Positions 5,620 to 53,940 of a stretch of 64,000 nt of DNA are shown piece by piece. Origin of the DNA: Thermoplasmatales archaeon (GTDB lineage Archaea > Thermoplasmatota > E2 > DHVEG-1); contig CP070724.1 of the NCBI GenBank assembly GCA_020350825.1, positions 1,888,607-1,952,606 on the forward strand, given 5' to 3'. Made by a program: the position numbers and the translations under genes. Positions within the stretch are counted from its first letter, which is position 1; every line of letters begins with the position of its first letter. Below the pieces are notes generated by a model. That model ran no database searches. It had not been told where the DNA came from and saw nothing but the letters and a program-made list of their open reading frames with translations.

Positions 5620-6048
5620 TTACATCTCGTTAAAAGGTGATTTTTCGCCTCTGCTTGTAGTATAAATTGCAACGGCCCAACAAGATGCCTTTGATGAGTT
5701 GCAACTACATTTATTCTTTATATAGATGTTCATCTTGTGAGTTTCTGTAATTGGAAGTACCTTAATACTTTCATGATTGCAATCAATTTTATAGCAATTC
5801 TGTTCTGATTTTAGATAAAAACTCGGTAAACTCTTATAACCTTCGAAGTAGACTATGTGCTTATCCCTCCCAGATTCATCATAAATATCCCAATGATGCT
5901 CCCTGCCATTTAGAATAATGTGTAAACTAGATGGAGTTGATGATTGAGTTATAGGAACGACTTTTATCCAACACTTACCGTCTTTTCGAATCATCCCGAA
6001 ATCTATGTCATTTATTGTGATATTGAACCTAGTGTATTTTTCAGCCAT
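5620..6048 (-). CDS. Unknown soluble protein, Cys-containing
   Basis: The 142-residue product has no signal peptide or membrane segment and I recognise no family. It looks mostly beta (FNITINDIDFGMI, CWIKVVPIT, LHIILNGREHHWDIYD) and ends with a Cys-rich part (CYKIDCNHES, NKCSCNSSKASCW) that could bind metal. GAGGAAAAG lies directly upstream of the ATG. It is the first gene to the right of the att fragment and stands alone between that and the protease gene. Confidence 0.55.
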   Translation of the reverse strand: MAEKYTRFNITINDIDFGMIRKDGKCWIKVVPITQSSTPSSLHIILNGREHHWDIYDESGRDKHIVYFEGYKSLPSFYLKSEQNCYKIDCNHESIKVLPITETHKMNIYIKNKCSCNSSKASCWAVAIYTTSRGEKSPFNEM

Positions 6049-6195
6049 CTTTTCCTCAAATTACAATTTCATTTATTATTTTCTTAATTTTTCCTCCTCC
6101 TCTTTTCTAGATGCTCCCAACCTTTTTCATCACACATCTACAATTACCTTCCTAAACCATAATTTTATAACACATATCTCTTTAACAAAGGTACA

Positions 6196-53281: not shown

Positions 53282-53455
53282 TCAAGAAAACAAAACCCTC
53301 AAACTGCTAAATAATGTTTCGACAAAATCTAGTAAGATAACCTTTTGGTGGAGAAGATAAAAAGGTAATCTGAATCGAGCCATTTTTTTCTACATCTATC
53401 CTATAATCATTTAGAGGGAGGTTGTGAGGGGCCTATGTGAGGAAAGGAGGAAAGG

Positions 53456-53512
53456 ATGGAAAATAATTTGTTTAGAAATCTTTCTTGTATTAGACCCCCC
53501 ATTACAATATAA
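53456..53512 (+). CDS. Very short ORF with strong SD, doubtful
   Basis: An ATG follows GGAGG by five bases and opens an 18-codon frame (MENNLFRNLSCIRPPITI). The SD spacing is ideal, but in a purine-rich block such matches arise easily. It could be a leader peptide, but no gene follows on this strand. Confidence 0.2.
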   Translation: MENNLFRNLSCIRPPITI

Positions 53513-53801: not shown

Positions 53802-53811
53802 AAATATATAT
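53802..53811 (+). promoter_or_regulatory. TATA-box-like element of the structured RNA gene
   Basis: AAATATATAT lies 24-33 bases before the first base of the long stem at 53835, the normal archaeal TATA-to-start distance. The area is AT-rich, so the element alone is weak; the spacing to the stem gives it weight. Confidence 0.45.
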
Positions 53812-53834
53812 ACTAATAATTTCAATATATATCT

Positions 53835-53940
53835 GGGAAGGAGGGTAGCGCGAGATTTTTTTCAAATCTCCTCACCACCTCACCGCTCCCTTCTTCCTAT
53901 AATTTAAATACTTAAAATACTGTTTTTTAAGTATGCTTTT
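53835..53940 (+). ncRNA. Probable orphan structured small RNA
   Basis: A 14-base-pair stem joins 53836-53850 (GGAAGGAGGGTAGCG) to 53884-53897 (CGCTCCCTTCTTCC), with one bulged T and one G-T pair. Inside it is a 7-bp hairpin, GAGATTT (53852-53858) with AAATCTC (53864-53870), loop TTTTC. The 13 bases between, CTCACCACCTCAC (53871-53883), stay single-stranded and contain CACCTC, the anti-Shine-Dalgarno core. A TATA-like box is upstream at the right distance and a terminator-like hairpin follows. No described class fits: it lacks an H/ACA pocket and C/D boxes. The fold is seen directly; that it is transcribed is inferred. Confidence 0.6.
53908..53940 (+). terminator. Terminator-like hairpin of the structured RNA
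   Basis: A perfect 10-bp dyad, ATACTTAAAA (53908-53917) and TTTTAAGTAT (53925-53934), is followed by GCTTTTGACCTTTTT. T-rich tracts after weak hairpins act as terminators in archaea. It ends the candidate RNA at about 53940. Confidence 0.5.

Follow-up and report, generated by a model that had tools for sequence, protein, structure and literature searches.

A multi-copy family of structured small RNA genes with a nearly invariant pyrimidine-rich loop, predicted from Thermoprofundales genomes

Within the window (the whole stretch of 64,000 nucleotides of a Thermoplasmatales archaeon contig that was analysed), positions 53802 to 53940 hold a TATA-like box, nested hairpins and a T-rich tail. Do these letters encode an RNA, does that RNA have relatives, and what might its open pyrimidine strand bind? 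The original prediction described an orphan structured RNA gene with its own promoter, falling into no known RNA class and exposing an anti-Shine-Dalgarno (anti-SD) core through which it might control translation widely or mimic the ribosome.

Layout and fold of the locus

The TATA-like box, stem, internal hairpin, open strand and AT-only hairpin were all found where they had been predicted. The stem is present as claimed, although the fold gives it 16 bp with one bulge rather than 14 bp. The surrounding 830-base gap was said to be free of protein genes, and between 53281 and 54109 there is indeed no open reading frame of 60 aa. The features of this gap are listed below.

53802-53813, plus strand: TATA-like box AAATATATATAC, about 26 nt 5' of the stem
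53832-53903, plus strand: predicted small RNA gene (class I, subtype A), with its extent given by covariance models R1 and R2
53834-53850, plus strand: 5' arm of the closing stem (16 bp), with a single bulged base at 53846
53884-53899, plus strand: 3' arm of the closing stem, from fold and covariation
53852-53870, plus strand: 7-bp hairpin GAGAUUU/AAAUCUC, from the fold, which shuts the first bases of the conserved motif
53866-53883, plus strand: family motif AUCUCCUCACCACCUCAC, kept in all 19 type A/B sequences
53871-53883, plus strand: 13-nt open strand CTCACCACCTCAC, single-stranded in the window copy
53908-53940, plus strand: AT-only 10-bp hairpin (53908-53934, from the fold) followed by GCTTTT
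53396-53510, minus strand: second, related RNA-like element (class II), with a TATA-like box, a G-rich stem GGGGGGUC/GGCCCC and the loop AUCCUUUCCUCCUUUCCUCAC; it folds

Folding of positions 53831-53940 gave a minimum free energy of -35.8 kcal/mol, where 200 dinucleotide shuffles gave -16.5 ± 2.9 (z -6.6, 0/200), and the closing stem alone reached a z of -5.2. The reverse strand of the locus folds too (z -4.2), so fold energy alone cannot assign the strand. The plus strand is indicated instead by the side on which the TATA box lies, by the paralogs and by the comparative alignment. The AT-only hairpin and T-rich tail at 53908-53940 probably mark the end of the transcript. L056 and L072 have a similar arrangement, and TTTT occurs within 45 nt downstream in 64 of the 94 family copies. 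The 7-bp hairpin is restricted to subtype A (seen in L001, L040, L056 and L072), the other subtypes being without it.

The view that the RNA belongs to no known class agrees with the searches made here. No Rfam 15 family matched at gathering score in the window or at seven paralog and ortholog loci, and the sub-threshold matches near the RNA were at chance level (E>2; the best, at E 2.2, being a miRNA model). ARAGORN found no tRNA or tmRNA gene in the window.

Covariation, copies and genomic neighbours

The description of the locus as an orphan proved wrong. A DNA search of its own genome (one contig, 2.32 Mb) recovered a second copy at 97691, which has a different stem (AGAGAATGGGG/CCCCATTCTCT) and shares with the window copy 18 bases (ATCTCCTCACCACCTCAC) and the distance to the TATA box. 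Model R1 gave at least five clear copies in this genome (97724 plus, 401817 plus, 592999 minus, 930817 minus and 1942438 plus). The window copy itself matches R1 with an E of 2.1e-14, being one of the 19 sequences on which that model was trained, and the refined model R2 with an E of 1.2e-11.

Across a wider range, an exact 16-mer scan of 84,980 prokaryotic species returned 90 loci, about 20 of which are Thermoplasmatota or Euryarchaeota MAGs with both stem and TATA box. Most of the other matches are GC-rich and apparently coding, and those that were folded had no stem; the non-archaeal ones were set aside as chance. Carriers include SM1-50 and 3300003432D, which are listed as Thermoprofundales (MBG-D) (PMC6461988). 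R2 detected the RNA in 44 of the 45 genomes that belong to the same archaeal family (Thermoprofundales/MBG-D, Thermoplasmatota), in 3 of 7 from elsewhere in the order and, as one weak match each, in 9 of 338 genomes outside the order. There are up to eight copies per genome.

The original prediction implied that relatives would carry compensating changes in the stem, and these are decisively present. Among 95 distinct sequences, 11/11 modelled stem pairs have compensatory double changes, with 96 double-change cells against 21.6 ± 3.8 in shuffles (0/500) and at most 34 when the partner was slid; the covariation was repeated on a reduced set of 61 sequences, both alignments having been fitted to the model and thus leaning towards structure. 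Compensating stems can also be picked out by eye, as in GAAUGGGG/CCCCAUUC, GGAUGGGG/CCCCAUCC, GAACAGGGA/UCCCUGUUC and GAAUGAGGG/CCCUCAUUC.

Conservation is higher in the loop than in the stem, with stem sequences and loop lengths both variable. The loop sequence, AUCU(Y)UCCUCACCACCU, hardly varies and is almost G-free: the aligned motif UYUC(C/U)UCACCACCU shows near-zero variation in 81/94 copies, G occupies 5 of 1539 positions in the motif window, and a U-run of at least four is present in the loop of every one of the 94 copies. Compensatory changes around an invariant loop are, as judged from these alignments, the mark of purifying selection. A strict pattern finds the TATA box in 81/94 copies, mostly some 21-30 nt upstream, and inspection adds 11 copies with a variant box (CTTATATAC, ATATATATAC and similar), giving about 92/94. 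This layout, with its nearly fixed distance, is that of an independent archaeal transcription unit, from which we infer transcription.

The claim that the locus is a gene for a structured RNA and carries a promoter for it is supported, and we are highly confident that these loci form a conserved structured RNA gene family. The window gene is one member of a multi-copy family of small RNAs in Thermoprofundales (MBG-D), each predicted from its promoter to be transcribed independently.

The subtypes differ in their surroundings. Subtype A, that of the window, stands against iorB-iorA (Pfam). Subtype B lies 3' of an aldehyde ferredoxin oxidoreductase gene and faces a zinc carboxypeptidase gene (Pfam), subtype D faces an HD-type phosphohydrolase gene in 25/27 cases, and subtype F sits between L37Ae and a small Pcc1-like gene (gene names for D and F by eye). 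These neighbours are orthologous across genera; going by gene order, the subtypes are old and hold different fixed places. Such subtype-specific conserved neighbours point to independent trans-acting RNA genes, and neither to leaders nor to mobile repeats. A cis-acting leader or riboswitch, which should lie in the 5' UTR of a co-directional gene, was also rejected because the genes that follow subtypes A, B and D run towards them and the copies have no common downstream gene.

The same neighbours bear on two further explanations. A DNA-level inverted repeat, acting as a boundary or as a terminator where two genes converge, would fit the placing of subtypes A, B and D before convergent genes, as well as an inverted repeat that covaries. 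However, the TATA box lies on one fixed side in nearly every copy, the loop motif is conserved in a strand-specific way, and some subtypes, F among them, have no pair of convergent genes around them, all of which makes this reading very improbable. The presence of several copies per genome would suit a dispersed mobile repeat (MITE-like), the alternative being a functionless chance hairpin. Here the comparative data stand in contradiction: each subtype keeps its orthologous neighbours across genera, no copies occur on viral contigs, and the compensatory changes and the invariant loop speak for purifying selection. We give this explanation a close to negligible chance. Matches in IMG/VR (10 and 27 by pattern) were rejected, none having the stem or a TATA box and most looking coding.

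Guide RNAs were considered as well. For the C/D box type, the C box (RUGAUGA) occurs in 0/94 copies, as do C and D (CUGA) boxes together; for the H/ACA type there is no conserved ANA column, ACA occurs in 30/94 copies over an 18-nt span, and the conserved strand lies on the 3' side only. Both were set aside. Some loci show related architectures: at about 5950-6060 on the minus strand of L058 (CP070798) a copy of the loop motif is enclosed by a different and far longer stem (GGGGAGUUG../..CAACUCC), which makes a third architecture, and L265 and L329 have long stems around CAUCCUUUCCUCC..CUCACC loops and appear to be related stem-loop RNAs.

Candidate partners of the conserved loop

Our tentative preference, held with somewhat less than even confidence and drawn from analogy, is that these are trans-acting sRNAs that would regulate translation by SD pairing in the manner of alpha-r14. 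It is preferred because a conserved pyrimidine loop with variable stems resembles both the alpha-r14/'cuckoo' sRNAs and the C-rich seeds of Staphylococcus aureus. In the alphaproteobacterial alpha-r14/'cuckoo' sRNAs (NfeR1), three hairpins each carry an unpaired CCUCCUCCC, and this anti-SD blocks ribosome binding sites (PMC10746234). The likeness lies in a multi-member family with an ultraconserved, unpaired, pyrimidine-rich motif and stems of differing sequence, whereas the present RNAs have a single hairpin, UCCUCACCACC in the loop, an archaeal promoter, a U-run and a motif of which half is not anti-SD. Membership of alpha-r14 itself was rejected, since there is one hairpin and not three, and CCUCCUCCC occurs in 5/94 copies, all of one subtype. 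In those five (L154, L155, L167, L181 and L192) it lies at the loop/stem border with the letters of the alpha-r14 anti-SD motif, which is probably convergence. The S. aureus C-rich (UCCC) sRNAs, such as RsaA, bind the SD of mRNAs through a common short unpaired seed (PMC3961350), but there the seed is 4 nt long in otherwise unrelated RNAs, while here one homologous archaeal family has a longer invariant motif. From archaea, the trans-acting sRNA162 of Methanosarcina mazei masks a ribosome binding site with a single-stranded region and has homologs only in two close relatives (PMC3510493); its single-stranded linker is its most variable part, the reverse of what is seen in the present family.

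The commonest SD 5-mers in the genome are AGGAG, GGAGG, GAGGA and GGTGA. Against the start regions of the single genome, the loops did not outscore their own letters in shuffled order (P 0.13-0.75), a test in which the true 16S tail does beat shuffles. That tail was taken from the relative G036 (L247), no complete 16S being readable in the genome itself, where 16S/23S can be read as fragments (G000:C1:64382-64594 and 1523606-1523841) and a nearby stretch of L221 is N-masked; this probably reflects withheld sequence or the assembly, and not fragmented rRNA. We then compared 191 orthologous start-region pairs from the genome and G020, counting pairs scoring at least 14, with P values uncorrected. 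Conserved SDs were matched beyond expectation by the loops of subtypes A/B (42 against 26.5 ± 9.2, P 0.05), D (55 against 35.6 ± 8.9, P 0.02) and E (60 against 38.5 ± 8.8, P <0.004), and by the true 16S tail (26 against 9.8 ± 6.2, P 0.02); subtype F and the consensus core were not significant on these pairs.

When the motif was divided, the 5' half AUCUCUCCUCA scored 41 against 16.4 ± 7.7 (0/400 shuffles) and the 3' half CUCACCACCUC scored 4 against 13.7 ± 7.4, giving no SD signal, although this split was chosen post hoc, after k-mer counts on the same data, and is thus a lead rather than a test. The anti-SD idea survives in part, for the 5' half, which complements conserved ribosome binding sites better than shuffles do, and not for the exposed half CACCACCUC. 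It was the CACCTC of the exposed strand that had been expected to bind SDs, and CTCACCACCTC, to which the 4 pairs just given belong, does not exceed its shuffles on conserved ribosome binding sites. Nor did the suggested targets GGTGAGG and GAGGTG hold up, GTGAGG and GAGGTG being rare in start regions, and with GGTGGTGAGGA as the anti-SD, 0/31 non-self genomic sites (at most one mismatch) proved to be an SD at a start codon. The ribosome-mimic reading is unsupported.

No start region anywhere in the genome is complementary to the 11-nt core or to the whole motif. The sole perfect non-self match, at 2282030, was rejected as a target, as by eye it seems to code for the SGGE signature found in ATPases of the ABC/Rad50 type. 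The sequence UGAGGAGAU, the exact complement of AUCUCCUCA, is conserved before the start codons of the orthologs A293/B419 and A451/B918, which are the best candidate targets.

In each RNA the closed stem holds open a loop composed of the U-run and a nearly G-free pyrimidine strand. If SD pairing is correct, the UCUCCUC part of this strand would pair over 6-9 nt with the SDs (AGGAG, GAGGA) of several mRNAs. A second contact, with either a protein or a further RNA, may be made by the invariant CACCACC part, and an Sm-like (Lsm) protein may bind the U-run. Paralogs with different stems and promoters could exert the same action under different conditions. In subtype A the 7-bp hairpin takes up part of the 5' anti-SD-like half, so the window copy may be weaker or need opening.

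A close second is that the RNA binds protein, its G-free motif and U-run being recognised by an Sm-like/Lsm or KH-domain protein and the RNA serving as scaffold, sponge or store. We regard this as only a little less likely than SD pairing. It ranks so near because SD pairing leaves the CACCACC half unexplained, although conservation there is no lower; in addition, the motif is conserved base by base, stems and loop lengths vary freely while the U-run is always there, and no full-length antisense target exists. Set against this, each RNA has a single motif and no array, the 5' half complements conserved SDs beyond expectation, and the CU-rich loops differ in other subtypes and in the second class, which fits pairing equally. 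CsrB, for example, titrates CsrA as a protein sponge RNA. Should protein binding be right, a protein-binding loop motif would be shared with CsrB/CsrC, but here there is no tandem array and no GGA motif.

The loop might also be directed at rRNA, with CACCACCU pairing to the conserved 16S sequence AGGUGGUG (near E. coli 1046) in 30S assembly or sequestration. In the one complete 16S available, that of L247 from G036, the segment AGGUGGUGCAUGG matches exactly over 8 nt, and nearly all subtypes carry CACCACCU. However, within 4.5 kb of rRNA a chance match of 8 nt is not unusual, this one ends inside the invariant core, and a search of 16S and 23S gave no better rRNA duplex common to the subtypes. 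We consider this option quite improbable.

A second element and the wider reading

The class II element occupies the same 830-base gap on the opposite strand. Two homologs in G020, at L337 16399-16538 and L334 19849-19987, match it at 79% over about 140 nt, and less close relatives lie in L217 (4158-4182), L265, L329, L344 and L365. It may be a second class with several copies. In the archaeal family, the 12-mer ATCCTTTCCTCC of this element is about 10 times commoner than a reversed control, a part of which may be explained by SDs on the opposite strand. A broader and distinctly speculative proposal, which we think unlikely on balance, is that Thermoprofundales have an anti-SD sRNA repertoire made up of class I, with up to eight genes in a genome, and class II, with the loop AUCCUUUCCUCC. 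Each RNA would be a stem presenting a pyrimidine strand with hardly any G, and together they would set translation globally and redundantly. If true, this would be a bacterial-style sRNA regime unknown from archaea.

A search of open-access literature gave no account of such an RNA family, and the Thermoprofundales paper does not mention non-coding RNA (PMC6461988).

Thermoprofundales are a globally abundant, uncultured sediment lineage. To our knowledge, the regulatory RNAs known from archaea are few, and the ones on record (sRNA162, for example) are limited to few species. The family predicted here is found in practically every genome of that lineage, in multiple copies, with strong covariation and a near-invariant motif of 14-18 nt. 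For work on post-transcriptional control in Thermoplasmatota it supplies a model, an alignment ready for Rfam and a motif that can be tested.
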